Assembly (NCBI RefSeq): GCF_016508255.1
Contig: NZ_JADVKT010000005.1
Coordinates: forward strand, 62,001-126,000
Reading direction: 5' to 3'
Length of the DNA stretch: 64,000 nt
Source: Acinetobacter calcoaceticus
Lineage (GTDB): Bacteria > Pseudomonadota > Gammaproteobacteria > Pseudomonadales > Moraxellaceae
Each line of letters starts with the position of its first letter. The stretch's first letter is position 1. The position numbers and the translations under genes are program-made. This document shows positions 46,941-61,551 of the stretch, one piece after another. The notes below the pieces were generated by a model. That model saw only the letters and a program-made list of their open reading frames with translations. It had not been told where the DNA came from and did no database searches.

Positions 46941-46970
46941 AAAAAAAGCGACTTAACGTCGCTTTTTTTA
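46941..46970. terminator. Bidirectional intrinsic terminator
   Basis: AAAAAAGCGAC pairs with GTCGCTTTTTT across a 5-nt loop. It serves the small protein gene (plus) and the convergent IclR gene (minus). Confidence 0.9.
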
Positions 46971-47780
46971 GTAAATAAATTTCGAAATTTTATTTGCTGT
47001 TTCAATTACGAGGTTTGCAATATCTTCTTTAAAAGTTCTTTCGTCGTAAGTGGTAATCGGGCAACTTACTGAAATAACCGCGACCATTTTGCCATTTGAT
47101 TGTTTAAAAATAGGTGCAGCGCAGGCTGCCATATCATGATTGTAATGGCCCCAGCTCACCATTGTTTTTTGGGTTTTTACATAAGCTAATCTTTGTAATA
47201 GCGCTTTTAAATTGGTGGGTGTCAGTTCAGAGAAACTGTCCCAGTCATTGAAACTACGGTAACGCTGACGTACTTCTGTTTCAGGTAAATCCGACAATAA
47301 CATTTGCCCAATAACAGTGGCATGGGCAGGCCAGCGAGTACCTAAACTAATGTTGCTCGTAAAGGTTCCCATAGACTGAATATTATTTACAAAAACAATA
47401 TGTGTGCCTTCTAAAATAGAAAGATGAACAGCGAGTTTAGTTTGGTCGCGTAGTTCTTTCATTAAAGGGGTCGATAAATCGAGTAATGAAAGTTTGGATA
47501 AACTGTTAAAACCGAGTTCCATAACTTTTGAATCAAGTGAATAAGTTTTTTGAGATGCCTTTCTTAAATAGCCACAAGATTCGAGTGTATGGATTAGACG
47601 AAATGCACTAGAACGATTCACTTCTAAAATTTCAGCAATTTCTGTAATCGTCATTTCTTGTGCTTGTTGATTAAATGCTTGCAAGATGGCTAAACCCCGT
47701 ACAAGGCCGGGTACTAAATATCGTTCATCATTTTTTGTAGTTTCTGATTCTTGCGAATCTTCTTCAATTGTTAGGCTCAT
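46968..47780 (-). CDS. IclR-family transcriptional regulator
   Basis: The protein has 270 residues from the ATG at 47780, with AGGA upstream. The winged helix is M-T-I-T-E-I-A-E-I-L-E-V-N-R-S-S-A-F-R-L-I (about 43-63), followed by the IclR effector domain (about 95-265). It is divergent from the aromatic catabolism cluster that starts at 48054 and very likely controls it. A strong promoter and a partial palindrome lie in the shared 273-bp gap. Confidence 0.88.
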   Translation of the reverse strand: MSLTIEEDSQESETTKNDERYLVPGLVRGLAILQAFNQQAQEMTITEIAEILEVNRSSAFRLIHTLESCGYLRKASQKTYSLDSKVMELGFNSLSKLSLLDLSTPLMKELRDQTKLAVHLSILEGTHIVFVNNIQSMGTFTSNISLGTRWPAHATVIGQMLLSDLPETEVRQRYRSFNDWDSFSELTPTNLKALLQRLAYVKTQKTMVSWGHYNHDMAACAAPIFKQSNGKMVAVISVSCPITTYDERTFKEDIANLVIETANKISKFIY

Positions 47781-47962
47781 TCGTGTCTTTTTCCTATAAA
47801 TAAAACAAGGTTCAATTTGGAGCATGCTGCTTTATTTTAGAACTATTGTAATTGTTAAAAATACATAAAACAATTTTTATATTTAAAACTTTGTTTCTTG
47901 ATTGAAACGTAACAAAATATTTAAATTTTATTAAATTAATGAATTATATGTTTATTTTTACT

Positions 47963-48036
47963 TTGACAAAAAATGATCAAGGATATTATGCTTAGCTTAT
48001 GTTTTGAAAATCAAATTATGTTTTGTATATAAAACA
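47963..48036 (+). promoter_or_regulatory. Promoter and palindromic site ahead of the aromatic cluster
   Basis: TTGACA at 47963-47968 and TTATGC at 47986-47991 are spaced 17 bp apart, a near-consensus promoter for the cluster. TGTTTTGTATATAAAACA at 48019-48036 is an imperfect 18-bp palindrome between it and the first gene, and could be the IclR operator. Binding is inferred. Confidence 0.6.
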
Positions 48037-48053
48037 AAATGAGGACGCAAGGT

Positions 48054-48359
48054 ATGAGTTGGATCTCAGTTTGTCAGCAGGGTGACGTTAGCGAAGATGA
48101 GCCGAAAGCCATCGAAATTGAAGGGAAAAAAATTGGTGTATTTTTCGTCGATGAAAATTACTTTGCTATCGAAAATGTTTGCCCTCATGCGTATGCCTTA
48201 TTAACCGAAGGATTTATCGAAGATCAAACTGTGGAATGTCCATTGCACGAAGCAATTTTTGACATTCAGACAGGTGAGCTAAAAAGTGGACCCGGGTGTA
48301 GAAACCTATGTACGTACCCAGTTCGTGTTGAAGGACAGGATATTCAAATTCAACTCTAG
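48054..48359 (+). CDS. Rieske-type ferredoxin of a ring-hydroxylating oxygenase
   Basis: The protein has 101 residues from the ATG at 48054, the second of two in-frame ATGs. The [2Fe-2S] ligands are C43-P-H45 and C62-P-L-H65. This small ferredoxin passes electrons from the FAD reductase at 51497 to the oxygenase at 48703. It is first in the cluster, just after the promoter. The length and motifs fit the BphA3/NirD-like family. Confidence 0.92.
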   Translation: MSWISVCQQGDVSEDEPKAIEIEGKKIGVFFVDENYFAIENVCPHAYALLTEGFIEDQTVECPLHEAIFDIQTGELKSGPGCRNLCTYPVRVEGQDIQIQL

Positions 48360-48386
48360 TCCTCTCATGTACAAGGAAGCAGAACA

Positions 48387-48686
48387 ATGAAGACATTTAA
48401 TGAAAAGTTGGCAAGCTGGATTCATGCAACGCCAGCAACCGAAGCAGGTATCAACAATATTCAAGTTCCAGGTCAATCTGAATTGTTGGTTTGGCAAACA
48501 CGTTATAAAGAACCAACCCTCTACGAACAAGATTTTGTAAAGAACTTGATTCAGGCATTTTCTGCGGGCGCAACAGAGTTAGATGACGTTGTTTCTGCAC
48601 TTAATCAACAGGGTTTCCGCTGTGAATCTGCTGATGAATGGACTTCTGCAAGCTTTACAGAAGAAATGCAACGTTTAGGTTATTGA
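48387..48686 (+). CDS. Small protein of unknown function within the oxygenase operon
   Basis: This 99-residue protein sits between the ferredoxin (27 bp) and oxygenase (16 bp) genes. It has no cysteine near a cluster motif and one Cys near residue 84. It is mostly helical. The middle reads A-F-S-A-G-A-T-E-L-D-D-V-V-S-A-L-N-Q, which resembles a small winged or recombinase-like helix-turn-helix. It is too small to be the beta subunit of a ring-hydroxylating dioxygenase (about 160-190 residues). The role is unknown. It may assist oxygenase assembly or regulation. Confidence 0.6.
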   Translation: MKTFNEKLASWIHATPATEAGINNIQVPGQSELLVWQTRYKEPTLYEQDFVKNLIQAFSAGATELDDVVSALNQQGFRCESADEWTSASFTEEMQRLGY

Positions 48687-48702
48687 TTCAGGGAAGAATA
48701 AA

Positions 48703-49770
48703 ATGAACGCAATCGTATCAGCTTCACAAAGTGCTGAAGAATATTTAGAACTTGGTTTACGTGACCAATGGCATCCGGTTTTAGCAAGTTGGGAAGTGGC
48801 TGCTAACCCAGTCGGAATTACCCGCTTGGGTGAAAATATTGTGGTTTGGCGTGATGCCGAAGGTCAGGTACACGCACTTGAAGACCGCTGCCCACACCGT
48901 GGAGCTCGTCTTTCATTAGGCTGGAACTTGGGTGACCGTGTTGCTTGCTGGTATCACGGTGTTGAAGTTCGTGCTGATGGTGTCGTTGCAGATGTGCCGG
49001 CTGTTCACGAATGTCCAATGACTGGAACCAAATGTTTAAAGAACTATCCGGTCATTGAGCAACATGGTGCAATCTTCATCTGGTTCGGTATTGATGCAAA
49101 TGAACAGCCAAAACCACTTGAGTTCCCAGAGCAACTTGCAAGCGAAGAGTGGAGTGCATTCCTTTGCCAAGCAGACTGGAAAGTAAACCATCAATATGCC
49201 ATTGATAACGTGATGGACCCAATGCACGGGACATATTTGCACGCTACATCGCACTCGATGGCAGATGGTGAACGTACCGCAGAGATGAAGCACCGTACAA
49301 CTGATAATGGTTTTGTCTTTGAAAAAGAAGGCCAAACAGGGGTGAACTTCGACTGGGTCGAATATGGTTCAACAGGTGCAAGCTGGTTACGTCTTTCAAT
49401 CCCTTACCGTAAACAATTTGGTCCGGGTGGCGAATTTTGGATTGTGGGTTATGCAACTCCAATTGATGCGAACAATACCCGCGTATTTTTCTGGCGCTGC
49501 CGTAAGGTAAGTGGCTGGCAACGTAATGTATGGCGTTTCTTATATCGCAATCATTTAGAACAGTTGCATTGGGATGTGTTGGAACAAGACCGCATTATTT
49601 TAGAAAACCTTGCACCAAATGCACGTGAAAGAGAATTCCTCTATCAACACGACGTTGGTCTTGCACGTTTACGCCGTTTAATGAAAAAAGAAGCTGAGAA
49701 GCAATTAAAGAAAATTGCTGCGCTAAATGCATCAAATCGTATCGAGATGCAGGAAGAAGCTCATGGCTAA
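48703..49770 (+). CDS. Rieske non-heme iron oxygenase, alpha subunit
   Basis: This 355-residue oxygenase has a Rieske cluster motif C63-P-H65 and C82-W-Y-H85. The mononuclear iron site has D172-P-M-H175 with H180 (D-P-x-H-x4-H). Residues about 290-320 (E-Q-D-R-I-I-L-E-N) supply the remaining region. It has no paired beta-subunit gene, so it is a single-type oxygenase, as in carbazole or phthalate enzymes. It probably adds dioxygen to an aromatic ring to form a cis-diol. Electrons come from the neighbouring ferredoxin and reductase. Confidence 0.92.
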   Translation: MNAIVSASQSAEEYLELGLRDQWHPVLASWEVAANPVGITRLGENIVVWRDAEGQVHALEDRCPHRGARLSLGWNLGDRVACWYHGVEVRADGVVADVPAVHECPMTGTKCLKNYPVIEQHGAIFIWFGIDANEQPKPLEFPEQLASEEWSAFLCQADWKVNHQYAIDNVMDPMHGTYLHATSHSMADGERTAEMKHRTTDNGFVFEKEGQTGVNFDWVEYGSTGASWLRLSIPYRKQFGPGGEFWIVGYATPIDANNTRVFFWRCRKVSGWQRNVWRFLYRNHLEQLHWDVLEQDRIILENLAPNAREREFLYQHDVGLARLRRLMKKEAEKQLKKIAALNASNRIEMQEEAHG

Positions 49771-50527
49771 TGTCGCGTTGCTGCAAGGTAAAAAAGTTCT
49801 CGTAACTGGTGCTGCACGTGGTTTAGGCCGAGATTTCGCTCAAGCCATTGCCGAGGCAGGTGCTGAAGTTGTGATGGCAGATATTTTATCTGACTTGGTG
49901 CAACAAGAAGCACAAGTTTTACAGAAGCAAGGACTCAATGTTCATGCTGTCACCGTTGACCTTGCCAAGGCAGACTCTATTGAAAATGCAGTTGCAAAAA
50001 GCGTGGAAGTATTACAAGGACTAGATGGCCTTGTGAACTGTGCAGCGCTTGCAACCAATGTAGGTGGGAAAAATATGATTGATTACGATCCTGAACTTTG
50101 GGATCGGGTCATGACTATTAATGCAAAAGGTACATGGCTCATTAGTAAGGCGTGTGTTCCACATTTAAAGCAATCGGCTGCCGGCAAGATCATTAATGTT
50201 GCTTCCGATACAGCACTTTGGGGCGCACCGAACTTGATGGCTTATGTGGCAAGTAAGGGTGCAATTGTTGCCATGACCCGTTCAATGGCAAGAGAGTTGG
50301 GGCAGTTCAATATCTGTGTTAACACATTGTCTCCGGGGCTTACTCTGGTTGAAGCAACTGAGTATGTGCCACAGGAACGCCACGATTTATATGTAAATGG
50401 AAGAGCGATTCAACGTCAGCAACTTCCACAAGATTTAAATGGAACAGCATTGTATCTACTGTCGGATTTGTCCTCTTTTGTGACAGGTCAAAATATTCCG
50501 GTCAATGGCGGTTTTGTCTTTAACTAA
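49763..50527 (+). CDS. Short-chain dehydrogenase (probable cis-diol dehydrogenase)
   Basis: The protein has 254 residues from the ATG at 49763, which overlaps the oxygenase stop by 8 bp with AGGAAGAAG before it. The NAD(P)-binding motif is T-G-A-A-R-G-L-G, the catalytic Tyr/Lys motif is Y-V-A-S-K and N-V-A-S-D supplies the Ser. It is placed to oxidise the oxygenase product to a catechol. The C-terminal N-G-G-F region is typical of the family. The substrate is not known. Confidence 0.88.
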   Translation: MANVALLQGKKVLVTGAARGLGRDFAQAIAEAGAEVVMADILSDLVQQEAQVLQKQGLNVHAVTVDLAKADSIENAVAKSVEVLQGLDGLVNCAALATNVGGKNMIDYDPELWDRVMTINAKGTWLISKACVPHLKQSAAGKIINVASDTALWGAPNLMAYVASKGAIVAMTRSMARELGQFNICVNTLSPGLTLVEATEYVPQERHDLYVNGRAIQRQQLPQDLNGTALYLLSDLSSFVTGQNIPVNGGFVFN

Positions 50528-50538
50528 GGAGTAGTCAA

Positions 50539-51468
50539 ATGATTACAGGGATCGAGATTTTAAAGTTTGGAGTTGAAGATAGAGCCGCTTCGAACAAATT
50601 TTTAGCAGATTTTGGTTTAAGTCAAAGTACTTCTGACATTGAAGGCACAGATTTATATCAAACTCAAAATGGCAGCAAGATTTATCTATTTAATTGTGAT
50701 GATGACCGTTTGCCACCTGCTATTGAACAAGGTTCAACTTTACGTGAAGTCACTTGGGGTGTTGATAACGCTCAAGACCTCGAAGACTTAGCAGGGCGTT
50801 TGGCTGATGTAAATGGTTTTGAGCGTTCTGAAAATACAGTTCAGTGTCTTGACCCAAATGGAATGACTATTCGTTTTGAACAAAGCTTTGTTAAAGATGT
50901 TCAAGAACTCAAAACAGAAGGCATTAACCAATACGGCAACATTCAACGCGTAAATGCAGCAAGTCCTGTCTATGAAAAAGGTCAACCTGTTGCGATTGGA
51001 CATGTGGTGTTCTTCACACCGGATTTAGCAGCAACTGAAAATTTCTATATTGAAAAAGTAGGTTTCCATTTATCTGATGCCTACAAAAATCGCGGTGCAT
51101 TCTTACGTTGTCGCGGTGAAGGTTATCACCATGATTTGTTCTTGCTCAGTGTGCCAAATAAACCGGCTGGCCTAAATCACGTTGCATTCGTTGTTCGTGA
51201 TATTCATGAGGTGATTGGGGGCGGTTTAAATATGAATCGTTCGGAATGGTCAACTTTCATTGGGCCGGGACGCCACCCAATTTCTTCTGCTTATTTTTGG
51301 TACGTCAACTCACCATTGGGTGGTGCATTTGAATATTACACCAACGATGACTATTTGACAGAAGAATGGCAGCCGCGTGTAGAAGAACACCGTCTAGAGC
51401 TTTTCACCGAGTGGGCGATTGAAGGTGGTCTTGATGACACAACCCGCCGTCAGGTGAAGCCTGTTTAA
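50539..51468 (+). CDS. Extradiol ring-cleavage dioxygenase (VOC family)
   Basis: The protein has 309 residues from an ATG with AAGGAG 7 nt upstream. It has two vicinal-oxygen-chelate domains (about 1-115 and 145-300). The second carries the iron ligands: His in A-I-G-H-V-V-F, His in G-L-N-H-V-A-F and Glu in F-E-Y-Y near residue 270. Enzymes of this type cleave a catechol next to the hydroxyls. It follows the diol dehydrogenase, so it likely opens the ring formed by the preceding steps. Confidence 0.9.
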   Translation: MITGIEILKFGVEDRAASNKFLADFGLSQSTSDIEGTDLYQTQNGSKIYLFNCDDDRLPPAIEQGSTLREVTWGVDNAQDLEDLAGRLADVNGFERSENTVQCLDPNGMTIRFEQSFVKDVQELKTEGINQYGNIQRVNAASPVYEKGQPVAIGHVVFFTPDLAATENFYIEKVGFHLSDAYKNRGAFLRCRGEGYHHDLFLLSVPNKPAGLNHVAFVVRDIHEVIGGGLNMNRSEWSTFIGPGRHPISSAYFWYVNSPLGGAFEYYTNDDYLTEEWQPRVEEHRLELFTEWAIEGGLDDTTRRQVKPV

Positions 51469-51496
51469 CAGGCATTGCTGAACAAGGAAGATGGCT

Positions 51497-52708
51497 ATGG
51501 AAAAGATTGTAATTGTAGGTGCAGGGCAGGCAGCAGGTTGGGCGGTAAGCACACTGCGCCAAAATGGTTATGTGGGCGAAATTCATGTAGTTTCAAATGA
51601 AGATCAAGTGTTTTATGAGCGTCCGCCACTGTCTAAGCAAGTGCTTTCAAAAGAAGCAACTTATGAAAGTTTGAATCTGTTTTCTAATGAGCAGGTTCAA
51701 GAGTTCAACGTTCAATGGCACAAACCTGAAATTGCGACAAAAGTCGACCGTGAACAAAAACAGGTTCATTTAGAAAGTGGTCAGGTTTTGCCCTATGACA
51801 AATTGCTGATTGCAACAGGAAGCCGTGCTCGTGTACCAGTCAATACATGGCAGTTCATTCCAAATGTTGTGACCTTACGTAATGTGCATGACTGCGAACG
51901 CTTGGCAGAAATTTTAAAGAATGCAAAAAATGTTGCTGTGATTGGTGGTGGTTGGATCGGTCTTGAGATTGCCGCAACTGCACGTAAACAAGGTAAAGAC
52001 GTTCATATTTTTGAATATGGCGACCGCTTGTGTGCAAGAAGTGTGAGTCCGGAAGTTTCTGCATTTTTAAAAAATATGCATGAAACCCAAGGTACAAAAA
52101 TTCACTTAGACAGCAAAAGCCTTCACTTGGTTGAAGCTCCTAGCCAAAAAGTTGAAGTGGTGAATCATCCACAAAATAGTCAGTTATTTGACTGTGTTGT
52201 GGTGGGTGCAGGCGCCGAGATTGCCAAAGAGTTAGGTGTTCATGCTGGCCTCGATGTGAAAGATGGCATTGTGGTGAACTGTTTTGGACAAACCTCAGAT
52301 CAAAACATTTATGCCGCAGGCGATGTCGCAATTCATCCGGGCTTGGGCTATTGCATTCAGTCTTGGGCAAATGCACAAAATCAGGCCATTGCCGCAGCGA
52401 AATCGATGCTCGGGATTGAAACCGAATACACTGATATTCCATGGCTCTGGTCTGATCAATATCACTTTAATATCCAGATTTTAGGAACTTACCAACCTGA
52501 ACAAACGAAAGAGTTGGTGATTCGCCAAGGTGGTGAAGATCAGGTGAGCTATTTATATTTGGACCATGAAAATCGTTTGCTGAACATGATTGCAATTAAT
52601 GATTCAAAATTGGTCAAACTGGCAAAACGTTGGATGCAAGCCAACACCATTTTAGATCCAATACTGTTAGCAGATTCTGAATTTAATGTCATGAAGTTAA
52701 AACCGTAA
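51497..52708 (+). CDS. Ferredoxin reductase (FAD, BphA4-like)
   Basis: The protein has 403 residues from the ATG at 51497, which is better spaced from AAGGAAG than the ATG at 51491. The FAD motif is I-V-I-V-G-A-G-Q-A-A, the NAD motif is V-A-V-I-G-G-G-W-I-G-L-E-I-A and the second FAD motif is Y-A-A-G-D-V-A. It passes electrons from NADH to the ferredoxin at 48054. The C-terminal domain is of the reductase type. Confidence 0.92.
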   Translation: MEKIVIVGAGQAAGWAVSTLRQNGYVGEIHVVSNEDQVFYERPPLSKQVLSKEATYESLNLFSNEQVQEFNVQWHKPEIATKVDREQKQVHLESGQVLPYDKLLIATGSRARVPVNTWQFIPNVVTLRNVHDCERLAEILKNAKNVAVIGGGWIGLEIAATARKQGKDVHIFEYGDRLCARSVSPEVSAFLKNMHETQGTKIHLDSKSLHLVEAPSQKVEVVNHPQNSQLFDCVVVGAGAEIAKELGVHAGLDVKDGIVVNCFGQTSDQNIYAAGDVAIHPGLGYCIQSWANAQNQAIAAAKSMLGIETEYTDIPWLWSDQYHFNIQILGTYQPEQTKELVIRQGGEDQVSYLYLDHENRLLNMIAINDSKLVKLAKRWMQANTILDPILLADSEFNVMKLKP

Positions 52709-52750
52709 ACATTAAATCTGGTTCTCATTACCAAATCGAAGGAATGACAC

Positions 52751-53974
52751 ATGAGTAATGAAGAAAAAAGTGGATTAAAGCATTGGGTACCTGCTTTTGT
52801 CCTTATGGTGTGTGTGGTACTGGCATTTTTTGACAAGATCAGTATTGCGGTTTTATTTTCAGATCCGCATTTTCAAAACTCGATGGGAATCGCTGGAGAT
52901 AAAGCCAAACTAGGATGGCTCATGACAAGCTTCTTGCTTTCCTATGGTTTTTCATCAGTCTTTCTAAGCTTTTTGGGTGACATCTTTAACCCAAAGAAAA
53001 TGCTGTTCTGGAGTGTAACTTCATGGGGTTTACTCATGTTTTGCATGGGATTTACCACCAGTTATTCAGGCATGCTGATTTTACGTGTGCTGCTTGGTTT
53101 AGCAGAGGGACCGCTATTTGCTTTGGCCTATACCATTGTTAAGCAGACTTACACAGATCATCAGCAGGCCCGTGCTTCAACCATGTTCTTACTTGGAACG
53201 CCGATTGGTGCATTCCTTGGGTTCCCAATCACAGCAAATGTTTTGGCACACCATGACTGGCATACCACTTTTTTTGTGATGGCCGGATTAACACTAATCG
53301 CTATTTTCAGCATTGTTTTTGGCTTACGTAACTTGCAACTCAAGAAAACAGTCGAAATTGATGGTGAGAGCAAACGTACCAATTTCAAAGGCCATGTTGC
53401 CAATACCAAGATACTTTTGAGCAATAGAGCATTTTGGCTAGTTTGTCTCTTCAACATTGCATTGATGACTTATTTATGGGGCTTAAATAGCTGGGTTCCT
53501 TCTTACTTAATGCAAGACAAAGGCTTCAACCTCAAAGAATTTGGGATGTATTCAAGCTTTCCATTCATTGCCATGTTAGTTGGTGAAATCATCGGCGCGT
53601 TTTTATCTGACAAGTTAGGTCGCCGCGCAATTCAAGTATTTAGTGGCTTATTACTCGCAGGCATTTTCATGTATGTGATGGTCATTATGACCCAGCCGTT
53701 ACTGATTATTGCTGCCATGTCTTTAAGTGCGATGGCTTGGGGTTTTGGAGTGGCCGCTGTATTTGCTCTTCTTGCAAAAGTAACGACCTCAAATGTAGGT
53801 GCAACGGCAGGCGGAATATTTAATGGTCTGGGTAATTTTGCAAGTGCAATTGCACCCGTACTGATTGGCTACATCGTGATGCAAACCCATAGTTTTAATT
53901 TAGGAATTACCTTCTTGGCTGCTGTCGCTGTCATTGGGTCTTTGTTCTTGGTTCCTCTTTTAAAACGTTATTAA
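52751..53974 (+). CDS. MFS transporter (probable aromatic-acid importer)
   Basis: This 407-residue protein has twelve membrane segments. It has the loop motif F-L-G-D-I-F-N-P-K-K after helix 2, with the usual final Arg replaced by Lys, and F-L-S-D-K-L-G-R-R-A in the second half. A F-F-D-K-I-S motif in helix 1 is common in the ACS-like anion carriers. It sits inside the catabolic cluster, so it presumably imports the growth substrate. It starts 42 bp after the reductase. Confidence 0.87.
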   Translation: MSNEEKSGLKHWVPAFVLMVCVVLAFFDKISIAVLFSDPHFQNSMGIAGDKAKLGWLMTSFLLSYGFSSVFLSFLGDIFNPKKMLFWSVTSWGLLMFCMGFTTSYSGMLILRVLLGLAEGPLFALAYTIVKQTYTDHQQARASTMFLLGTPIGAFLGFPITANVLAHHDWHTTFFVMAGLTLIAIFSIVFGLRNLQLKKTVEIDGESKRTNFKGHVANTKILLSNRAFWLVCLFNIALMTYLWGLNSWVPSYLMQDKGFNLKEFGMYSSFPFIAMLVGEIIGAFLSDKLGRRAIQVFSGLLLAGIFMYVMVIMTQPLLIIAAMSLSAMAWGFGVAAVFALLAKVTTSNVGATAGGIFNGLGNFASAIAPVLIGYIVMQTHSFNLGITFLAAVAVIGSLFLVPLLKRY

Positions 53975-53997
53975 TTCACTGTATAGGAGTTCAAAAA

Positions 53998-54519
53998 ATG
54001 ACTACACAACAATTCGAATCGTGGGCACAACCAGAAAATGCTTCTTTAGAAGATTGGTTAAATACACGTATTGCTCGCTTTGAAACTCGTAAATATGACT
54101 TTGATGCTTTGAAATTCCAAGCAGATTACGACCCGAAATATCGCCGTGCACAAATGCGTTACATGGGTACGGGCGCAACAGGTGTTGCAAATGATGGCAA
54201 CACTGTACCAGCAGAAAACTTTACATTTTCGACCATGGTTTTACCACCGCAGTGTGAAGGCCCTTTGCACATTCACCATGATGTTGAAGAAGTTTTCTTT
54301 ATGCTCCGCGGTGAAATTGATTTGTTCATTGAGCACAACGGCGAAAAATTTGAGACCCGTTTAAAAGAGCGTGACCTGATTTCAATTCCACCGGGAATTT
54401 ACCGTGGTCTATTTAACCCGGGTCAAGAAGATGCCTTGATGTGTGTGATGTTGGGAACAGGGAAGCCAACAATTCCTAACTATCCACCAGAGCACCCATT
54501 ATCTCAAATCAAACGTTAA
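53998..54519 (+). CDS. Cupin-domain protein
   Basis: This 173-residue protein has one cupin barrel: the metal-binding pattern G-P-L-H-I-H-H-D-V-E-E-V-F-F-M-L-R-G (about 81-98) and I-P-P-G-I-Y-R-G in the second motif. In that second motif the usual His of G-x-x-H appears to be Arg, so metal coordination may differ. The N-terminal 60 residues are of unknown fold. Cupins in catabolic clusters act as dioxygenases, isomerases or sensors. I cannot decide its role here. Confidence 0.8.
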   Translation: MTTQQFESWAQPENASLEDWLNTRIARFETRKYDFDALKFQADYDPKYRRAQMRYMGTGATGVANDGNTVPAENFTFSTMVLPPQCEGPLHIHHDVEEVFFMLRGEIDLFIEHNGEKFETRLKERDLISIPPGIYRGLFNPGQEDALMCVMLGTGKPTIPNYPPEHPLSQIKR

Positions 54520-54555
54520 TTGTTTGATGAAGTGAATGAAGGGAAAGGAATAAAA

Positions 54556-55380
54556 ATGATGACACTCATTGAAAAGTTAGCAGAATTTCCGGTAAAGACG
54601 GTGACCGTTTTAGGTCAGCAACAAGCATATCGGGAAGCTGGTCAGGGCGAATACCTTGTGCTGTTGCATGGCATTAGTTCGGGTTCTGCTTCTTGGGTGA
54701 ACCAACTTGAAGTGCTGTCTCATCATTTTCATGTCATTGCCTGGGATGCACCGGGCTATGGCAAATCAGATGAACTTTTAACTGATCAGCCGAATGCTAC
54801 CGATTATGCAAAGCGTTTGGCAGCATTGTTTGATGTTTTAAAAATTGAAAAAGCTATTGTCGTGGGTCACTCATTAGGTGCCTTACAGGCGAGTGCATTT
54901 GCTGCACTTTACCCAGAGCGAGTGGAACATTTAGTTGTCGCTAATTTAGCTCAAGGCTATCAACGCCACGATGAACAAACACAAATTCAGGTTTTTGAAA
55001 AAAGACCAAAAATGTTGAAAGAGTTAGGTGCTAAAGGCATGGCTGAAAGCCGTGGACCTCATTTGATTTATAGACAAGAACCACAAGCCTTGGCTTTAGT
55101 TTCAGAGGTGATGCAACAGTTGACTCTAAAAGGTTTCACACATGCATCGTACTTACTTGCCTATGACGAAATACGTAATTATTTAACCGATTTAAAAGTC
55201 CCATGCACAGTCATTGCAGGGCAGCAAGATCAAATCACTCCTGCGTTAGGTATACAAGAGCTTGCTCAGGAATTGCAGTTGGAACAGCACTACATCATCC
55301 AAGATGCAGGACATTTAAGTTATGTTGACCAACCGCAAGCATTTAACCAAATTATGTTGACGATTCAGGAACAATCGTAA
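54556..55380 (+). CDS. Alpha/beta-hydrolase (probable meta-cleavage product hydrolase)
   Basis: The protein has 274 residues from an ATG preceded by AAAGGAATAAAA. The nucleophile elbow is V-V-G-H-S-L-G-A (Ser about 104). The oxyanion motif is L-L-H-G-I-S-S-G, A-G-Q-Q-D-Q-I-T-P holds the Asp, and D-A-G-H-L-S-Y holds the His. The fold and position match C-C hydrolases that split ring-fission products. The expected products are a carboxylic acid and an unsaturated hydroxy-dienoate. The gene follows the cupin by 36 bp. Confidence 0.87.
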   Translation: MMTLIEKLAEFPVKTVTVLGQQQAYREAGQGEYLVLLHGISSGSASWVNQLEVLSHHFHVIAWDAPGYGKSDELLTDQPNATDYAKRLAALFDVLKIEKAIVVGHSLGALQASAFAALYPERVEHLVVANLAQGYQRHDEQTQIQVFEKRPKMLKELGAKGMAESRGPHLIYRQEPQALALVSEVMQQLTLKGFTHASYLLAYDEIRNYLTDLKVPCTVIAGQQDQITPALGIQELAQELQLEQHYIIQDAGHLSYVDQPQAFNQIMLTIQEQS

Positions 55381-55395
55381 GAGAGATTAAGGATT

Positions 55396-56190
55396 ATGAG
55401 CTTCCAAGTTGAAGGAAAAGTTGCAGTTGTTACCGGTGGCTCATCTGGGATTGGGCTGGCTGCTGTTGAAATACTGGTTGCAGAGGGTGCAAAAGTAGCT
55501 TGGTGTGGTCGCGATGAAGAGCGTTTAAATGCTTCTAAGCACTATATTTTAGAAAAATATCCGCATGCCAATATTTTTACCAAAGCATGTAATGTGTTGA
55601 AAAAAGAAGAAGTTCAGCAATTTGCCAAAGACGTCAAACTCAATTTGGGCAATGTGGACATGCTCATTAACAATGCTGGACAAGGCCGTGTTTCAAACTT
55701 TGAAAATACGCAAGATGAAGACTGGATGAAAGAAATTGAGCTGAAGTATTTCAGTGTTTTACATCCGGTACGGGCTTTTCTTGAAGATTTAAAACACTCT
55801 GCAAATGCATCGATTACCAATGTGAACTCTTTACTAGCGTTACAACCAGAGCCACACATGATTGCCACTTCATCAGCACGAGCGGCGTTGTTGAATCTCA
55901 CTCATTCTTTGGCTCATGAGTTTACTCAGTATGGTGTTCGTGTGAACTCGATTTTACTCGGAATGGTCGAATCTGCGCAGTGGAAACGCCGTTATGAAAC
56001 CCGTTCAGATTTAAATCTGTCATGGGAAGAATGGACAGGAAATATTGCAAAAAACCGCGGTATTCCGATGCAGCGTCTAGGTCGTCCTGAAGAGCCTGCT
56101 CGTGCTTTGGTTTTCTTGGCATCGCCATTAGCATCGTACACCACAGGTTCCACCATAGATGTCTCGGGTGGCTTCAATAAACATTTATAA
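55396..56190 (+). CDS. SDR-family protein with substituted catalytic residues
   Basis: The protein has 264 residues. The nucleotide motif T-G-G-S-S-G-I-G (13-20) and N-N-A-G (92-95) are intact and the Ser position is N-S-L (Ser145). Where other SDRs have Y-x-x-x-K, this protein reads A-T-S-S-A-R, so Tyr is Thr158 and Lys is Arg162. The C-terminal D-V-S-G-G-F is normal. It may bind the cofactor but catalyse differently, or act as a non-catalytic subunit. It is 15 bp after the hydrolase, so it is in the operon. Confidence 0.85.
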   Translation: MSFQVEGKVAVVTGGSSGIGLAAVEILVAEGAKVAWCGRDEERLNASKHYILEKYPHANIFTKACNVLKKEEVQQFAKDVKLNLGNVDMLINNAGQGRVSNFENTQDEDWMKEIELKYFSVLHPVRAFLEDLKHSANASITNVNSLLALQPEPHMIATSSARAALLNLTHSLAHEFTQYGVRVNSILLGMVESAQWKRRYETRSDLNLSWEEWTGNIAKNRGIPMQRLGRPEEPARALVFLASPLASYTTGSTIDVSGGFNKHL

Positions 56191-56205
56191 ATATAAGGTG
56201 CTGTC

Positions 56206-56997
56206 ATGAAAAAGTTGATGATGATTGGTTTTGGCGCAATGGCAGCAGAAGTACATGCTCATTTGCCTCAAGATCTGCAACTCAAATGGATTGTAGTGCC
56301 ATCTCGCAGTATTGAAAAAGTTCAATCACAAGTGTCTTCAGAGATTCAGGTGATTTCAGATATTGAGCAATGTGATGGTGAGCCAGACTATGTCATTGAG
56401 GTGGCAGGTCAAGCAGCAGTGAAAGAACATGCTCAAAAGGTGTTGGCTAAAGGTTGGACGATTGGTCTGATTTCAGTTGGAACCTTAGCAGATAGCGAGT
56501 TTTTGATTCAGTTGAAAGAAACTGCTGAACAAAATAATGCCCATCTGCATTTACTTGCAGGTGCTATTGCAGGCATTGACGGTATTTCTGCGGCCAAAGA
56601 AGGTGGCTTGCAAAAAGTCACTTACAAAGGCTGTAAAAGTCCAAAAAGCTGGAAGGGCAGTTATGCAGAGCAATTGGTCGATCTAGATCATGTTTCTGAA
56701 GCTACGGTCTTTTTCACAGGAACTGCGCGTGAAGCTGCCATGAAATTTCCGGCCAATGCCAATGTTGCTGCAACCATTGCACTTGCAGGACTTGGAATGG
56801 ACGAAACCATGGTTGAGTTAACCGTTGATCCAACCATCAACAAAAACAAACACACCATTGTGGCAGAGGGTGGTTTTGGGCAAATGACCATTGAACTGGT
56901 GGGCGTGCCGTTACCAAGTAACCCGAAAACATCAACTTTGGCTGCGCTTAGCGTAATTCGTGCTTGTCGCAACAGTGTAGAAGCAATACAGATTTAA
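56206..56997 (+). CDS. Aspartate dehydrogenase family protein (NadX/DUF108-like)
   Basis: This 263-residue protein has an N-terminal Rossmann motif M-I-G-F-G-A-M-A, G-A-I-A-G-I-D-G-I-S-A in the middle and the family's F-P-A-N-A-N-V-A-A-T segment (about 185-194). Members interconvert aspartate and oxaloacetate plus ammonia, or feed NAD synthesis with iminoaspartate. No nadA or nadC is nearby, and its place inside a catabolic operon suggests a related but different reaction. I recall a similar gene beside an aldehyde dehydrogenase and decarboxylase in Pseudomonas aeruginosa, but cannot check that here. Confidence 0.83.
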   Translation: MKKLMMIGFGAMAAEVHAHLPQDLQLKWIVVPSRSIEKVQSQVSSEIQVISDIEQCDGEPDYVIEVAGQAAVKEHAQKVLAKGWTIGLISVGTLADSEFLIQLKETAEQNNAHLHLLAGAIAGIDGISAAKEGGLQKVTYKGCKSPKSWKGSYAEQLVDLDHVSEATVFFTGTAREAAMKFPANANVAATIALAGLGMDETMVELTVDPTINKNKHTIVAEGGFGQMTIELVGVPLPSNPKTSTLAALSVIRACRNSVEAIQI

Positions 56998-57010
56998 GAA
57001 GGATTTGATC

Positions 57011-58477
57011 ATGGCAAAGGAAATTTATATTGCGGGTGAATGGCGATTAGGCCGAGGTGCAGTCATTCAAAGCCTGTTTCCGGCAGATCAGTCGGTAAAC
57101 GCAGAGCTTTCAACGGCAACACTTGATGATGTAAATGAAGCAATTGAAAAAGCGGATCAGGCTTGGCGTCAACCAAGCTGGAGAAATAGCTTGCCGCATG
57201 AGCGCGCACGTATTCTCTACAAAGTTGCAGACATTATTGAAGCACGTGTAGACGAATTAGCAAAATTACAAACACGCGATAATGGTAAGCCTTTAACCGA
57301 AACTCGTGGTTTAGTGATGAGCGCTGCGGCGACAGCACGTTATGTTGCGGCTGCATGTGAAACACTGAATGATGAGCTTACTACTCAACGCGCTCCAGAC
57401 TTTATGACCATGAGCGTGCATGAGCCTGTAGGCGTTGTGGCAGCAATTACACCTTGGAACTCTCCAATTGCGAGTGAAGTTCAAAAGCTTGCTCCAGCTT
57501 TAGCGGCAGGTAATGCCGTGGTATTAAAACCAGCAGAAGCAACTTCGTTAATTGCTTTAGAACTTGCCAAAATTTTTGAAGAAGCAGGTTTACCAAAAGG
57601 TTTGCTGAGTGTGTTAGTTGGGCGAGGTTCTATCATTGGTGATGCAATTGCTCAACATCCGTTGGTTCGTAAAATCTCTTTTACGGGTGGAACAACCACA
57701 GGTCGTCACTTGGCTCATATTGCAGCAGATAAACTGATTACCACTTCGCTTGAGCTAGGTGGAAAATCACCAACAATTGTTTTACCGGATGCAGATGTCG
57801 AACTGGCTGCTAAAGGCGTAGCGTACGGTATTTTTAGCTCGGCAGGCCAAGCATGTATCGCAGGTTCTCGCTTGTTTATTCATAGCAGTTTGTACGATCA
57901 GTTTTTAACGCGTTTGGTTGAAATAACCAAAGGCTTACGTGTGGGCCACCCAGAACAAGCTGGTGTGCATTTAGGGCCACTGGTCAATGACAAGCATTTG
58001 CAGTCAGTTGACCGCTATGTACAGCTTGCCAAAAGCGAAGGTGGTCAAGTTCTGATTGGTGGTGAAGCGCTTACGAGTGGTGACTATGCCAAAGGAAGTT
58101 ATTACTTACCTACCATTATTACGGGTTTAAGTAACAGTGCTCAAACTTGTCAGGAAGAAATTTTTGGCCCTGTTTTAGTCGTTATGAAATATGACAACGA
58201 GCAAGATTTAATTGCCCAAGCCAATGACAGTTGTTTTGGTCTTGCCGCAGGCATTTGGACTGAAAGCTACCGTAAAGCTTGGCGCATTGCACGTGCGTTA
58301 GAAGTGGGAACGGTATGGATTAACACCTACAAGAAGTTCTCGATTAGTGCACCGTTTGGTGGCTTTAAAGACAGTGGGATTGGGCGCGAAAAAGGCCGTC
58401 TAGGCATTTTATCGTACATGCAACAAAAGAGTATTTATATGGGGCTGAATGAACAGCCTAACCCTTGGTGCGATTAA
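57011..58477 (+). CDS. Aldehyde dehydrogenase (NAD(P)-dependent)
   Basis: The protein has 488 residues from the ATG at 57011, with AAGGA 7 nt upstream. The catalytic Glu lies in L-E-L-G-G-K-S-P and the catalytic Cys in S-A-G-Q-A-C-I-A-G-S. It oxidises an aldehyde intermediate to an acid. It starts 13 bp after the aspartate-dehydrogenase-like gene and precedes a thiamine diphosphate enzyme. The decarboxylase-plus-dehydrogenase pair would turn a 2-oxo acid into a shorter acid, which is inference from order. Confidence 0.9.
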   Translation: MAKEIYIAGEWRLGRGAVIQSLFPADQSVNAELSTATLDDVNEAIEKADQAWRQPSWRNSLPHERARILYKVADIIEARVDELAKLQTRDNGKPLTETRGLVMSAAATARYVAAACETLNDELTTQRAPDFMTMSVHEPVGVVAAITPWNSPIASEVQKLAPALAAGNAVVLKPAEATSLIALELAKIFEEAGLPKGLLSVLVGRGSIIGDAIAQHPLVRKISFTGGTTTGRHLAHIAADKLITTSLELGGKSPTIVLPDADVELAAKGVAYGIFSSAGQACIAGSRLFIHSSLYDQFLTRLVEITKGLRVGHPEQAGVHLGPLVNDKHLQSVDRYVQLAKSEGGQVLIGGEALTSGDYAKGSYYLPTIITGLSNSAQTCQEEIFGPVLVVMKYDNEQDLIAQANDSCFGLAAGIWTESYRKAWRIARALEVGTVWINTYKKFSISAPFGGFKDSGIGREKGRLGILSYMQQKSIYMGLNEQPNPWCD

Positions 58478-58515
58478 TAAATTCAAGGACTGAAAACAAA
58501 TTTTGAGGAACAGAT

Positions 58516-60156
58516 ATGACTGAACGTGTAAATGTAGGCGAAGCAATCGCAAGAGTTTTAGAAGCGCACCAAGTTGATAGTATTTATGGTGTTATTTCCA
58601 TCCACAATTTACCTATTGCCGATGCAGTAGGGCGCCGTGAAAAAATGCGTTTTGTCGCAGCACGCGGTGAGGCTGGCGCAGTCACCATGGCAGATGCACA
58701 CTCACGCTTTAAAGGCCTAGGTGTAGCGTTGACCAGTACGGGTGCTGGTGCAGGTAATGCGGTGGGGTCACTCATTGAAGCAATGAACGCGGGTAGCCCT
58801 GTATTGCATTTAACGGGTCAAGTTGAGCGTGAATATCTCGATCGTGATGCAAGCTTCATCCATGAAACTAAAGACCAACTTACATTCTTGCGCGCATCAA
58901 GCAAAGCGGCGTTTCGTATTACCAGCCCAGACAATGCAGTTGGTGTGATTCGTGAAGCTATTCGTGTCGCAACTACAGTTCCAATGGGACCGGTCAGTGT
59001 TGAGTTACCAATTGATGTGCAAGCAGCAGAAATCGATTTGCCACTTAACCTTGGACCTGTCAAAGCACTTGAGTTGCCACAGGCAGAGCAAGCTGAAATT
59101 GATTTTCTTGTCAGTGAAATCAAAAAAGCAAAACGTCCGATTTTCTGGATTGGCGGTGGAACTTTAAATAGCGTTGCTGAAGTTAAAGCAATTGCAGATT
59201 TAGGTATTCCAGTGGTGTCATCTACGCACGGCCGCGGTATTTTGGCAGATGATCATCCACGTAGTTTAGGTGCTTTCCATAACTCGGCAGGTGTTGAGCA
59301 GTTATTAAAAGATGCCGACTTGATGGTTGTGGTGGGTTCTCGTTTACGTAGTAATGAAACTAAAACCTATTCGGTTGAGTTCCCTGAAAATATTATTCAG
59401 GTAGATGCAAACCCAATGGCTCAGCAACGTAATTACAAAATCCGAAACTTCATTTGTGGTGATGCCAAAGATGTCTTAACACGTGTGTTAGAACAGCTTC
59501 AAGGGACTTCAAAAGTTGATGCCGATTACGATGCTGCTGTAGTTGCTGCAAAACAAGCTGCAATTGATGCACTTCGTAAACAAATCGATCAGTACGCATT
59601 AATTTGTGACCACTTACGTGCAGCTTTACCGCAAGACGGCATTTTTGTACGTGACATCACCATGTCGGGTAGTACATGGGGCAGTCGTTTATTCCCTGTA
59701 CAAGCGCCAAATCAAAACATCCACTCACTTGCGGGTGCAATTGGTTTAGGCCTTGCAACTGCAATCGGTGCTTCAGTTGCTAACCCTGACAAAAAAGTAA
59801 TTGGTTTGGTCGGTGATGGCGGCTTAATGCTTGGCATTGGTGAGATTGCAACTATGGTGCAAGAAAACACCAATATGGTCCTAATGATTATGAATGACGG
59901 TGGTTATGGCGTAATGCGCGGCATTCAAAATAACTACTTTGGTGGTCGTCAGTATTTTAATGAATTGCATACACCAGACTACAAGCTTCTTGGCGAATCA
60001 ATGGGTGTGAAGAGCTGGAAAGTCGGTAGTGCAGAAGAGTTTAAAACGGTTATTCAAGAAGCTGTCGCTTTTGAAGGGCCAACAGTAATTGAGCTCGATA
60101 TGAACTCGATTGGACCATTAAAGTTTGCGGGTCCACCGCAAAAGAAACTGTATTAA
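58516..60156 (+). CDS. Thiamine diphosphate-dependent enzyme (acetolactate synthase/2-oxo-acid decarboxylase type)
   Basis: The protein has 546 residues. The catalytic Glu is in the N-terminal A-R-G-E-A-G motif (about 51-56). The central domain has the Rossmann-like segment I-G-G-G-T-L. The cofactor motif is G-D-G-G-L-M-L, then N-D-G-G-Y-G about 25 residues later (roughly 434-463). It splits or joins 2-oxo acids using ThDP and Mg. It is the last enzyme gene before a terminator. Homologues include benzoylformate decarboxylase and acetolactate synthase. The substrate is unknown. Confidence 0.9.
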   Translation: MTERVNVGEAIARVLEAHQVDSIYGVISIHNLPIADAVGRREKMRFVAARGEAGAVTMADAHSRFKGLGVALTSTGAGAGNAVGSLIEAMNAGSPVLHLTGQVEREYLDRDASFIHETKDQLTFLRASSKAAFRITSPDNAVGVIREAIRVATTVPMGPVSVELPIDVQAAEIDLPLNLGPVKALELPQAEQAEIDFLVSEIKKAKRPIFWIGGGTLNSVAEVKAIADLGIPVVSSTHGRGILADDHPRSLGAFHNSAGVEQLLKDADLMVVVGSRLRSNETKTYSVEFPENIIQVDANPMAQQRNYKIRNFICGDAKDVLTRVLEQLQGTSKVDADYDAAVVAAKQAAIDALRKQIDQYALICDHLRAALPQDGIFVRDITMSGSTWGSRLFPVQAPNQNIHSLAGAIGLGLATAIGASVANPDKKVIGLVGDGGLMLGIGEIATMVQENTNMVLMIMNDGGYGVMRGIQNNYFGGRQYFNELHTPDYKLLGESMGVKSWKVGSAEEFKTVIQEAVAFEGPTVIELDMNSIGPLKFAGPPQKKLY

Positions 60157-60163
60157 CCAGTTT

Positions 60164-60212
60164 GGATGGTTTAGTACATATGCGATGGGAGCTACTAAAC
60201 CATCCTTTTTTT
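60164..60212 (+). terminator. Terminator after the ThDP enzyme gene
   Basis: GGATGGTTTAGTA pairs perfectly with TACTAAACCATCC over a 16-nt loop, followed by seven T residues. It separates the enzyme genes from the porin, so the porin probably needs read-through or its own promoter. Confidence 0.9.
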
Positions 60213-60311
60213 AGATAAATTTTTTTATCTAAAAAACAATAAAAACTAAGTTTTACAGGTAAAACAAATAAAGTTCCAGCAGGACGCTGGAACTCAATCA
60301 AGGATGTAGAG

Positions 60312-61508
60312 ATGAAAAAGACTTCATTGATCATGGCATTCATTGCACCGCTTACGCTGGGGGTAAGCGTCAATGCATTTGCAAAAGATTCATTGCTTGA
60401 ATGGAAAAGTGATGATGGAACAGAGTCATTAAAGTTAGGTGGAGTGGTACGTTTAAATCAACGCTATGAAGATTGGCAAGGGCCAAACCGCGGTTTTGGT
60501 AAACTCTATTTTGATATTTTTAGGGTAGATCTAAAAGGTAAGTTCGATGATGCATACATCAATGCCAGCTATCTATTTCAAGATCAACAGAAAACATCTA
60601 TTGAAAAAGCCTATGTTGGCTATAACCTTGACGCCAATAACAGCATTGAAGCAGGCTTGGTCTATAAACCTTTTACCATTTATCCATATCCACAAAATGG
60701 CTGGACTTATCACATTCCATTCTTTCTAGGCTATGGCAACAACATTGCACCAGGGCTTAACTGGAATTATCACGACAAAGATTGGGATGTAAAACTCGGT
60801 TATTATCCGCAAATGCTAGAGACTAATCTGCGTTATTCACCTGAAAGTGCAACTTATGATGACTTGGCAGGAAATGCGTTTCCATCTCAAAAAGCCTATC
60901 AAAATGAAAAACGCAATCAGGTTAATACCCGCATTGTTCGTAAGTTAGAAACTGATTTTGGTAAGCAAGAGTTTGGTGTATCTGGTGCAATCGCACAGTT
61001 GCATAACAAAGTGACTGATAAAGACGGCAAATATTACGCAGTCGGCTTGCATACCGAAAACAACTATAATCGCTTTAATTTACAAAGTTCTGTCATTCAC
61101 TATCAGTACGATGCTAAAAACCCAGATGGTGTAAATAATGACATGACTTTAATGGGGAATAATGGCTTTACGCCGGCCTATTTCATTGCTTCTGAAGGAA
61201 CCATTGCCAGTTTAAACCTTGCCTATACGTTGCCTGTGACCAATATGGGTAAGCTAAAAGCTGTTAAGTTTTATAATGATTATAGTTACCTTGATAAAAA
61301 ACGTGACGATTGGGCAGCTTCTCAAATGAACACTACAGGGATGATGTTTATTGCTTCACCATTTATGGTTTGGGCAGATTATACGTGGGGTAAAAACTCT
61401 AATATTATTGGTGGGGCGACCAACTCAACAGGTTATACCTCTGCTACTTCGCCAAACAGCGACAAATGGTTATATCGTATTAACTTTAATATTGGATTTA
61501 CTTTCTAA
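60312..61508 (+). CDS. Outer-membrane channel protein of the aromatic cluster
   Basis: The protein has 398 residues. A signal peptide (residues 1-24, ending N-A-F-A) is followed by beta strands with alternating aromatic residues and a C-terminal I-G-F-T-F, with Phe at the end. It resembles phosphate-selective or OprO/P-type porins more than OprD. It presumably brings the substrate of the upstream enzymes across the outer membrane. It lies behind the terminator at 60164, with 100 bp of its own upstream DNA. Confidence 0.82.
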   Translation: MKKTSLIMAFIAPLTLGVSVNAFAKDSLLEWKSDDGTESLKLGGVVRLNQRYEDWQGPNRGFGKLYFDIFRVDLKGKFDDAYINASYLFQDQQKTSIEKAYVGYNLDANNSIEAGLVYKPFTIYPYPQNGWTYHIPFFLGYGNNIAPGLNWNYHDKDWDVKLGYYPQMLETNLRYSPESATYDDLAGNAFPSQKAYQNEKRNQVNTRIVRKLETDFGKQEFGVSGAIAQLHNKVTDKDGKYYAVGLHTENNYNRFNLQSSVIHYQYDAKNPDGVNNDMTLMGNNGFTPAYFIASEGTIASLNLAYTLPVTNMGKLKAVKFYNDYSYLDKKRDDWAASQMNTTGMMFIASPFMVWADYTWGKNSNIIGGATNSTGYTSATSPNSDKWLYRINFNIGFTF

Positions 61509-61521
61509 ACTGAACAGTATT

Positions 61522-61551
61522 AAAAAAACCACGCAATCGGCGTGGTTTTTT
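61522..61551. terminator. Bidirectional intrinsic terminator
   Basis: AAAAAACCACGC pairs with GCGTGGTTTTTT over a short loop, between the porin (plus) and the MHS carrier (minus). Confidence 0.9.

Follow-up and report, generated by a model that had tools for sequence, protein, structure and literature searches.

A fourteen-gene oxygenase cluster of Acinetobacter calcoaceticus is a candidate operon for kynurenate degradation

We analysed a stretch of 64,000 nucleotides of Acinetobacter calcoaceticus (positions 62,001 to 126,000 of contig NZ_JADVKT010000005.1, assembly GCF_016508255.1; hereafter the window), which contains a cluster of aromatic-catabolism genes whose substrate we propose to be kynurenate. 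The open reading frame (ORF) listing and hmmscan searches against NCBIfam and Pfam revealed 14 ORFs at 48054-61508, all on the + strand, and confirmed the enzyme families that an earlier interpretation of the bare DNA (the sequence-only reading) had described. An IclR gene is divergent from the cluster. Abbreviations are SDR, short-chain dehydrogenase/reductase; VOC, vicinal oxygen chelate; MFS, major facilitator superfamily; AspDH, aspartate dehydrogenase; ALDH, aldehyde dehydrogenase; and ThDP, thiamine diphosphate. The features are as follows.

46968..47825, - strand: IclR-family regulator; PF01614 and PF09339 above cut-off, PcaR/PcaU/PobR subfamily model below cut-off
47874..47889, no strand: operator-like palindrome near the IclR gene start; GTTTTNNATATAAAAC with 1-2 mismatches, aligned across Acinetobacter loci
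47963..47992, + strand: promoter-like TTGACA/TATGCT; TTGACA aligned in all Acinetobacter loci compared
48020..48035, no strand: operator-like palindrome GTTTTGTATATAAAAC before the ferredoxin gene; exact GTTTTN6AAAAC
48054..48359, + strand: Rieske ferredoxin; PF00355, AndAb/HcaC models below cut-off
48387..48686, + strand: 99-residue PF20552 (HTH_62) protein, conserved oxygenase neighbour, in 80/80 loci
48703..49770, + strand: Rieske oxygenase of the single alpha type, proposed kynurenate 7,8-dioxygenase; PF00355 and PF19112, PDB match, invariant residues
49763..50527, + strand: SDR1, proposed dihydrodiol dehydrogenase; PF13561, conserved YxASK
50539..51468, + strand: VOC extradiol dioxygenase, proposed 7,8-dihydroxykynurenate 8,8a-dioxygenase; HpaD and catechol 2,3-dioxygenase models below cut-off, PDB match, motifs
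51491..52708, + strand: ferredoxin reductase; PF07992 and PF14759, HcaD-like below cut-off
52751..53974, + strand: MFS transporter, proposed substrate uptake; PF07690
53998..54519, + strand: cupin, proposed ring-opening dioxygenase of dihydroxypicolinate; PF07883, fold matches
54556..55380, + strand: alpha/beta hydrolase, proposed enamide (N-acyl) hydrolase; PF00561, PDB matches including 3kxp
55396..56190, + strand: SDR2, lacking the Tyr/Lys pair, proposed side-chain C=C reductase; NF005468 above cut-off
56206..56997, + strand: AspDH-family protein, proposed iminosuccinate reductase; NF009828 at 461 bits (cut-off 177), PF01958
57005..58477, + strand: ALDH; PF00171
58516..60156, + strand: ThDP enzyme, proposed 2-oxo-acid decarboxylase; NF005470 above cut-off, acetolactate synthase and benzoylformate decarboxylase relatives
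60250..60265, no strand: operator-like palindrome GTTTTACAGGTAAAAC before the porin-like gene; exact GTTTTN6AAAAC
60312..61508, + strand: porin-like protein of 398 residues; beta-rich with a signal-peptide-like start, judged by eye

The 14 genes follow one another in the order listed, from the ferredoxin to the porin-like gene. From the ferredoxin through the ThDP gene their spacing ranges from an overlap of ~8 bp to 42 bp, and a gap of ~155 bp separates the ThDP gene from the porin-like gene. The ferredoxin was read from the ATG at 48054; the longest ORF starts at 48039. Pfam matches above the curated cut-off were obtained for 13 of the 14 proteins, the exception being the porin-like protein, for which hmmscan returned no Pfam or NCBIfam match. 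This protein is a "hypothetical protein" in the A. baumannii annotation, and annotated porins adjoin the Caballeronia clusters. Neither a dienoate hydratase nor a 4-hydroxy-2-oxovalerate aldolase was found among the 16 proteins scanned (46968-62869), in agreement with the sequence-only reading, and a classical lower meta pathway was rejected on these grounds.

A scan of named genomes yielded at least 544 stretches encoding a relative of the oxygenase, of which the best 80, with 61-99% identity, were retained. These 80 loci span Acinetobacter, Psychrobacter, Ignatzschineria, Aeromonas, Zobellella, Marinobacterium, Neisseriaceae, many Enterobacteriaceae, Serratia, Erwinia, Burkholderiaceae and others; the window oxygenase is 97-99% identical to that of A. 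calcoaceticus, A. pittii, A. seifertii and A. nosocomialis. Core genes were counted by tblastn at identity thresholds of our own choosing, with 12 genes taken as the core and the MFS gene not required. All 12 are present on one strand in 66 of the 80 loci, and the gene set is therefore no chance grouping. The gene order of the window recurs in 48 of these 66 complete loci, and the order in the other 18 is ferredoxin-HTH62-oxygenase-SDR1-cupin-hydrolase-SDR2-ThDP-AspDH-ALDH-VOC-reductase. Several of the 14 incomplete loci end at the edge of the available DNA; among the 14, one (L063) consists of ferredoxin, HTH_62 and oxygenase genes only, and three (L049, L052 and L064) are rearranged. IclR genes adjoin or sit within the cluster in other lineages too.

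Within Acinetobacter, 21 of 59 genomes contain a close copy (at least 79% identity), which in one genome is interrupted by a stop codon. Two samples of whole taxonomic orders were searched at a threshold of E 1e-100. Matches were found in 5 of 390 genomes in the order of the nearest genome, where one of the five coincides with L052, and in 15 of 399 in the order of the Paraburkholderia locus L045, so that outside Acinetobacter the cluster is scattered. A more distant version exists in Streptomyces, and blastn found no match to the cluster in E. coli genomes.

Some variation around the cluster was also observed. The uptake system differs by lineage around the same enzymes, being of the MFS, ABC or TRAP type (L064 14117-16824; L097 6625-9503; L128 11308-13906). 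Variants in Cupriavidus, Streptomyces and Caballeronia M1242 contain a VanB-type one-piece reductase (L125 27173-28129, L126 12801-13745, L127 17419-18378), and neither a ferredoxin nor an HcaD-type reductase was picked up in the stretches of these three that were searched. In Caballeronia NK8 (L132, L123) the enzymes are spread over two plasmids, one of which carries a second ThDP and VOC gene, with the genes in two blocks. Several A. baumannii records filed as plasmids (L121 = CP040048.1, NZ_CP077849.1 and others) may be mislabelled pieces of chromosome, given their great size or the presence of blocks that are probably chromosomal (pga genes, the cluster).

In the oxygenase, H175, H180 and D296, which we take to be the iron ligands of the Rieske oxygenase family, are invariant in 23 sequences. 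Its best PDB relative is the terminal oxygenase of carbazole 1,9a-dioxygenase, a single-alpha Rieske oxygenase likewise served by a separate ferredoxin and reductase; the match is, however, limited to residues 16-190, and the C-terminal domain of the cluster oxygenase is VanA_C-like. SDR1 retains YxASK in an alignment of 80 sequences including that of the window, and SDR and Rieske domains are fused in one protein (P0036). The VOC enzyme, whose best PDB match is homoprotocatechuate dioxygenase, retains the motifs GHVVFF, LNHVAF and EYY in 75 sequences including that of the window. By family and conserved motifs, the assignment of a Rieske oxygenase with its own ferredoxin and reductase, a diol dehydrogenase and an extradiol dioxygenase is thus borne out.

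In SDR2, Thr and Arg replace the Tyr-x3-Lys pair; that catalytic residues are replaced had been read from the sequence. Because this replacement is conserved in at least 95% of 75 sequences, which also share the motif VNSLLALqPE.HM.ATS.ARA, SDR2 is non-classical yet maintained, and not a decayed gene. The AspDH-family protein has the Asp_DH_C domain (PF01958) and NF009828 above cut-off, and its NxH, PxNxNVAAT and NPKTS motifs, common to the L-aspartate dehydrogenase of Archaeoglobus (2dc1), are conserved in 74 sequences including that of the window. The ThDP enzyme and the ALDH are, by family, candidates for the processing of a side chain. PDB matches of the alpha/beta hydrolase comprise an enol-lactonase, meta-cleavage-product hydrolases, RutD, esterases and the enamide hydrolase 3kxp (alpha-(N-acetylaminomethylene)succinate hydrolase), which scores well below the best match, 2xua. 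These span several activities and do not establish the C-C hydrolase that had been assumed.

The cupin departs from the canonical metal-cupin pattern. H91, H93, E97 and E98 are invariant in 25 sequences, which preserves the motif-1 HxH..E, and Arg 136 occupies the usual position of the motif-2 His. A Foldseek search with a model of mean pLDDT (predicted local distance difference test) 71.9 matched MncA, phosphoglucose isomerase, Ni-quercetinase, oxalate oxidase and 5-nitrosalicylate 1,2-dioxygenase; the model is mediocre, and the matches span many activities and fix none. Identification by sequence as a known dioxygenase was rejected, the PDB matches being weak. Three Alphaproteobacteria have a two-half cupin of 314-315 residues adjoining the cluster (L128 8589-9536, L129 9789-10733, L130 24841-25788); no gene for a 173-residue cupin is annotated in these loci, both halves of the longer protein align to the window cupin, and its motif-2 His residues look canonical by eye.

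The HTH_62 protein is modelled confidently from about residue 41 on and gave no PDB fold match at E 0.001. A protein of 446 residues (P0064) carries both the PF20552 and the Rieske domain, and the 99-residue protein, named for a "recombinase-like HTH", may be an unrecognised accessory subunit of the oxygenase and not a DNA-binding protein.

Kynurenate, which animals make from tryptophan, acts on receptors of the host. Its degradation in Pseudomonas was reportedly described by Hayaishi and co-workers as enzymology without genes, and bears the Enzyme Commission numbers 1.14.99.2, 1.3.1.18 and 1.13.11.10; to our knowledge, the corresponding enzyme entries lack sequences. The step order, the formylethyl intermediate and the end products used below are those of this route from the 1960s. 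From gene content, conservation, motifs and neighbours, we propose that the cluster serves to take up and mineralise kynurenate (4-hydroxyquinoline-2-carboxylate), with xanthurenate and quinaldate as possible extra entry compounds in some relatives. We put the probability that kynurenate is the substrate at about two in three. The reaction order would be the same as in Pseudomonas, namely dihydroxylation, diol dehydrogenation, extradiol cleavage, side-chain reduction, decarboxylation and aldehyde oxidation, whereas the classic work reportedly had no genes and the link to the cluster is one that we infer.

Judged from the families, each cluster enzyme would have a place in this route. The Rieske oxygenase, with its ferredoxin and reductase, would convert kynurenate to the 7,8-dihydrodiol (step 1), which SDR1 would oxidise to 7,8-dihydroxykynurenate (step 2); cleavage of C8-C8a by the VOC enzyme would then give 5-(3-carboxy-3-oxopropenyl)-4,6-dihydroxypicolinate (step 3). 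Because cleavage of a fused bicycle leaves such a 3-carboxy-3-oxopropenyl side chain, a reductase, a 2-oxo-acid decarboxylase and an ALDH are to be expected: SDR2 would reduce the side-chain double bond (step 4), the ThDP enzyme would decarboxylate the 2-oxo acid to the formylethyl compound (step 5), and the ALDH would yield 5-(2-carboxyethyl)-4,6-dihydroxypicolinate (step 6). Since this side chain can be decarboxylated and oxidised, a hydratase and an aldolase would not be needed, and an upper meta pathway lacking its lower half, as the cluster had been described, appears to be the wrong frame. The cupin would open the pyridone between C4 and C5 (step 7), the alpha/beta hydrolase would cleave the resulting enamide to 2-oxoglutarate and iminosuccinate (step 8), and the AspDH would reduce iminosuccinate to aspartate (step 9). 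An AspDH is the enzyme to be expected here because the N-C(COOH)=CH-C(O) portion of the last picolinate is the skeleton of iminosuccinate. The carbon balance of the proposed route closes (C10 = C5 + C4 + CO2). The MFS and porin-like proteins would import the substrate. The ring-opening steps are less certain than the assignment of kynurenate: we weakly prefer a dioxygenolytic C4-C5 opening followed by enamide hydrolysis, giving 2-oxoglutarate and iminosuccinate, over a hydrolytic opening, which would give glutarate instead.

Other known systems resemble the cluster in parts. Classical meta-cleavage clusters (bph/hpa/mhp) share the dioxygenase, diol dehydrogenase, extradiol dioxygenase and alpha/beta hydrolase, but the present cluster lacks the hydratase and aldolase and has a cupin, an AspDH and a ThDP enzyme. 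Vitamin B6 degradation is resembled in part only, through the enamide hydrolase 3kxp among the hydrolase matches. According to the accessible part of PMC9162365, strains of the A. baumannii complex use kynurenine as sole carbon source by means of a KynU cluster whose KynB is of the human type, and the tryptophan dioxygenase KynA is reported absent from Acinetobacter; the review PMC10269061, as far as it is accessible, repeats the kynurenine findings. The KynU/KynB cluster likewise feeds on tryptophan metabolites, whereas its enzymes differ from those of the 14-gene cluster, and neither "kynurenic" nor "kynurenate" occurs in the accessible portion of the main text of PMC9162365. Within the accessible parts of these papers, 7,8-dihydroxykynurenate and 5-(3'-carboxy-3'-oxopropyl)-4,6-dihydroxypicolinate are named in PMC11364965, and 5-(2'-carboxyethyl)-4,6-dihydroxypicolinate in PMC10543884 and PMC13188826, the latter two in the context of tryptophan metabolism. 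Taniuchi & Hayaishi 1963 is cited by PMC5610271 (accessible part), and the accessible part of PMC4577076 contains nothing on the cluster. Our literature search, with subscription papers largely outside its reach, found no gene assignment for kynurenate degradation among the matches listed. The sequence-only reading had called the pathway unassigned and the route new. The cluster itself stands, and "unassigned" gives way to a specific proposal, the enzyme set matching the 1960s route stepwise; "new" is probably wrong for the chemistry, the enzyme order fitting the old kynurenate route, and holds for the genes as far as our literature search shows.

Neighbouring genes in relatives provide further hints of the substrate class. 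Ten organisms, three of them represented among the 80 named loci, have a flavin monooxygenase (FMO) inside the cluster or at most ~10 kb away from it: Acinetobacter guerrae, Bisbaumannia, Natronospirillum, three genomes of one genus, Cupriavidus campinensis and EM10, Caballeronia M1242 and Nitratireductor OM-1. The members of this FMO family are 54-72% identical to that of Natronospirillum, and the best PDB relative is 6-hydroxynicotinate 3-monooxygenase, a likeness to nicotinate (nic) degradation in parts only. This FMO could hydroxylate xanthurenate (8-hydroxykynurenate) at C7 and thereby join the route at step 3. Molybdenum (Mo) hydroxylases are a class that oxidises N-heteroaromatics, for example quinaldate to kynurenate, as well as other compounds. 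Caballeronia NK8 has a three-subunit Mo hydroxylase near the cluster, whose relatives are, nearest first, 4-hydroxybenzoyl-CoA reductase, 6-hydroxypseudooxynicotine dehydrogenase, CO dehydrogenase and quinoline 2-oxidoreductase, and in two Cupriavidus records a Mo hydroxylase of two subunits is encoded between the cluster and the FMO. Bisbaumannia and the three genomes of one genus carry an arylsulfatase-like gene (below the NCBIfam cut-off) and a TRAP transporter. Directly 3' of the oxygenase of Caballeronia M1242 is a RidA-family gene (PF01042 above cut-off). The AspDH motifs and the relatives of N-heteroaromatic hydroxylases adjoining some clusters support the guess, made from the sequence, of a nitrogen-containing aromatic substrate.

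Tryptophan dioxygenase (PF03301) is encoded within ~10 kb of the cluster in three loci, those of Marinobacterium profundum, M. sedimentorum and an Oceanospirillaceae genome. In Marinobacterium (L022 4372-5892; L024), other genes, including one of the amidohydrolase family, lie between it and the cluster, and the linkage to tryptophan genes may therefore be incidental. In Phaeobacter, an AspDH match lies near an annotated kynureninase and a 3-hydroxyanthranilate dioxygenase; the oxygenase cluster is not in the stretch shown, and this case was not used.

Several points weigh against kynurenate as the substrate. None of the enzymes here is characterised, and we found no paper linking the cluster to kynurenate. 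The best 80 loci, out of at least 544, include none from Pseudomonas, though the classic work is said to have been done in that genus. The oxygenase role of the cupin is a guess, as the motif-2 His is missing and phosphoglucose isomerase is among the fold matches. Only a minority of loci have FMO and Mo modules; in NK8 the Mo enzyme stands closest to 4-hydroxybenzoyl-CoA reductase and not to quinoline oxidoreductase, and the M1242 RidA protein falls below both NCBIfam Rid cut-offs. The tryptophan dioxygenase linkage is loose, with a separate operon in all three loci, which may go back to one ancestral event. The "kynureninase" adjoining it in two loci (L096 and L024) is a protein of the class-V aminotransferase fold that scores 20.0 bits with KYNU_C (cut-off 27) and has no NCBIfam kynureninase match, and was not used as evidence. 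PF03301 is present in 21 of 40 cluster-bearing genomes and was not found in the 59 Acinetobacter genomes searched; the substrate of Acinetobacter would therefore come from outside, and kynurenate made by these bacteria themselves is unlikely. A tryptophan dioxygenase in the same genome would favour the assignment but is not needed for it.

Among the alternatives, another fused N-heteroaromatic acid (quinaldate, a hydroxyquinoline-carboxylate or a plant or microbial quinolone) could be the real substrate of the same kind of chemistry. Judging by the Mo hydroxylases and the NicC-like FMO close to some clusters, substrates of this class may vary, and the arylsulfatase-like genes and TRAP transporters of four organisms suggest a sulfated phenolic relative. 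These modules are, however, peripheral and present in only a minority of the loci, no Mo hydroxylase is required by the common core, and the AspDH points to a nitrogen bound to a C2 that bears a carboxyl group and to an oxygen on C4; we regard such a substrate as unlikely. If the compound instead contained no nitrogen (a naphthoate, or a chromone or coumarin carboxylate), the AspDH would have been recruited for an unrelated reduction. Steps 1-6, as read from the enzyme families, would indeed need no nitrogen, but the AspDH motifs are kept and one variant has a RidA-family protein, which makes this very improbable.

A monocyclic nitrogen-containing aromatic acid might also be dihydroxylated and cleaved, with the alpha/beta hydrolase as a true meta-cleavage C-C hydrolase and the ThDP, ALDH and AspDH enzymes processing the fragments. 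The hydrolase does resemble meta-cleavage-product hydrolases, and the extradiol enzyme HpaD and catechol 2,3-dioxygenase; yet the scanned proteins include no hydratase or aldolase and the decarboxylase and ALDH pair would be left unexplained, and we consider this option improbable. The best NCBIfam names, AndAb for the ferredoxin and HcaD/AndAa for the reductase, would make the cluster one for an anthranilate- or phenylpropionate-type dioxygenase, and anthranilate degradation is among the predicted abilities of the A. baumannii complex in the accessible part of PMC9162365. All these name matches are below cut-off, however; the oxygenase scores 22.7 bits against 671.9 for the anthranilate dioxygenase large subunit, no beta (small) subunit is present among the scanned proteins, and neither an extradiol enzyme nor a ThDP or AspDH enzyme is required to convert anthranilate to catechol. 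This assignment was rejected on the model scores, and we hold it to be the least probable of all.

The degradation chemistry of kynurenate dates from the 1960s, but our literature search found no genes for the route. If kynurenate is the substrate, the operon would become recognisable in A. baumannii, Klebsiella pneumoniae, Enterobacter, Serratia, Burkholderiaceae and marine bacteria, enzyme entries not known to have sequences would gain them, and genomes could be used to predict where microbes remove kynurenate in gut, wound or soil. More tentatively, and with somewhat less than even confidence, the cluster could represent the first gene set for complete mineralisation of kynurenate and xanthurenate to aspartate and 2-oxoglutarate, in which an unusual cupin opens the hydroxypyridone ring and an AspDH recovers the ring nitrogen, and with which common host-associated bacteria (Acinetobacter, Klebsiella, Enterobacter, Serratia) could feed on a signalling metabolite of the host. 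The cluster also raises two questions, the role of a cupin without the usual fourth ligand and that of the 99-residue HTH_62 neighbour of the oxygenase.

The upstream regions contain a recurrent palindrome. The promoter scan by itself is no evidence, since 21 promoter-like sites were observed in the region as compared with a mean of 32.4 in shuffles, i.e. fewer than by chance. The window (64 kb) has two exact copies of GTTTTN6AAAAC, one at 48020 preceding the ferredoxin gene and one at 60250 preceding the porin-like gene. With at most two mismatches to GTTTTNNATATAAAAC, 8 matches over both strands (5 distinct sites) were found where 2.3 were expected, and 0 of 100 shuffles reached 8; four of the five distinct sites lie at 47874, 48020, 60222 and 60250. 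The exact palindrome is present 5' of the ferredoxin gene in 15 of 16 Acinetobacter loci, the exception being L012. Ten other loci were inspected: five carry a perfect palindrome of related form, GTTYY-N6-RRAAC, such as GTTTCACAGGTGAAAC in Enterobacter cloacae or GTTTTGTAGGTAAAAC in a genome of the Neisseriaceae, two carry other palindromes and three carry none. The shared palindrome supports a single regulon of operon and porin-like gene, and because it recurs before both and in relatives, the IclR protein likely controls both.

Elsewhere in the window, judged by eye from the translations, positions 1-15136 contain genes resembling those of Type VI secretion (VgrG-like, 8956-11607; PAAR-like, 1493-2038), with two similar small lipoproteins at 12466-13593 within this region, and a choline/betaine uptake and oxidation block is located at 23413-31329.

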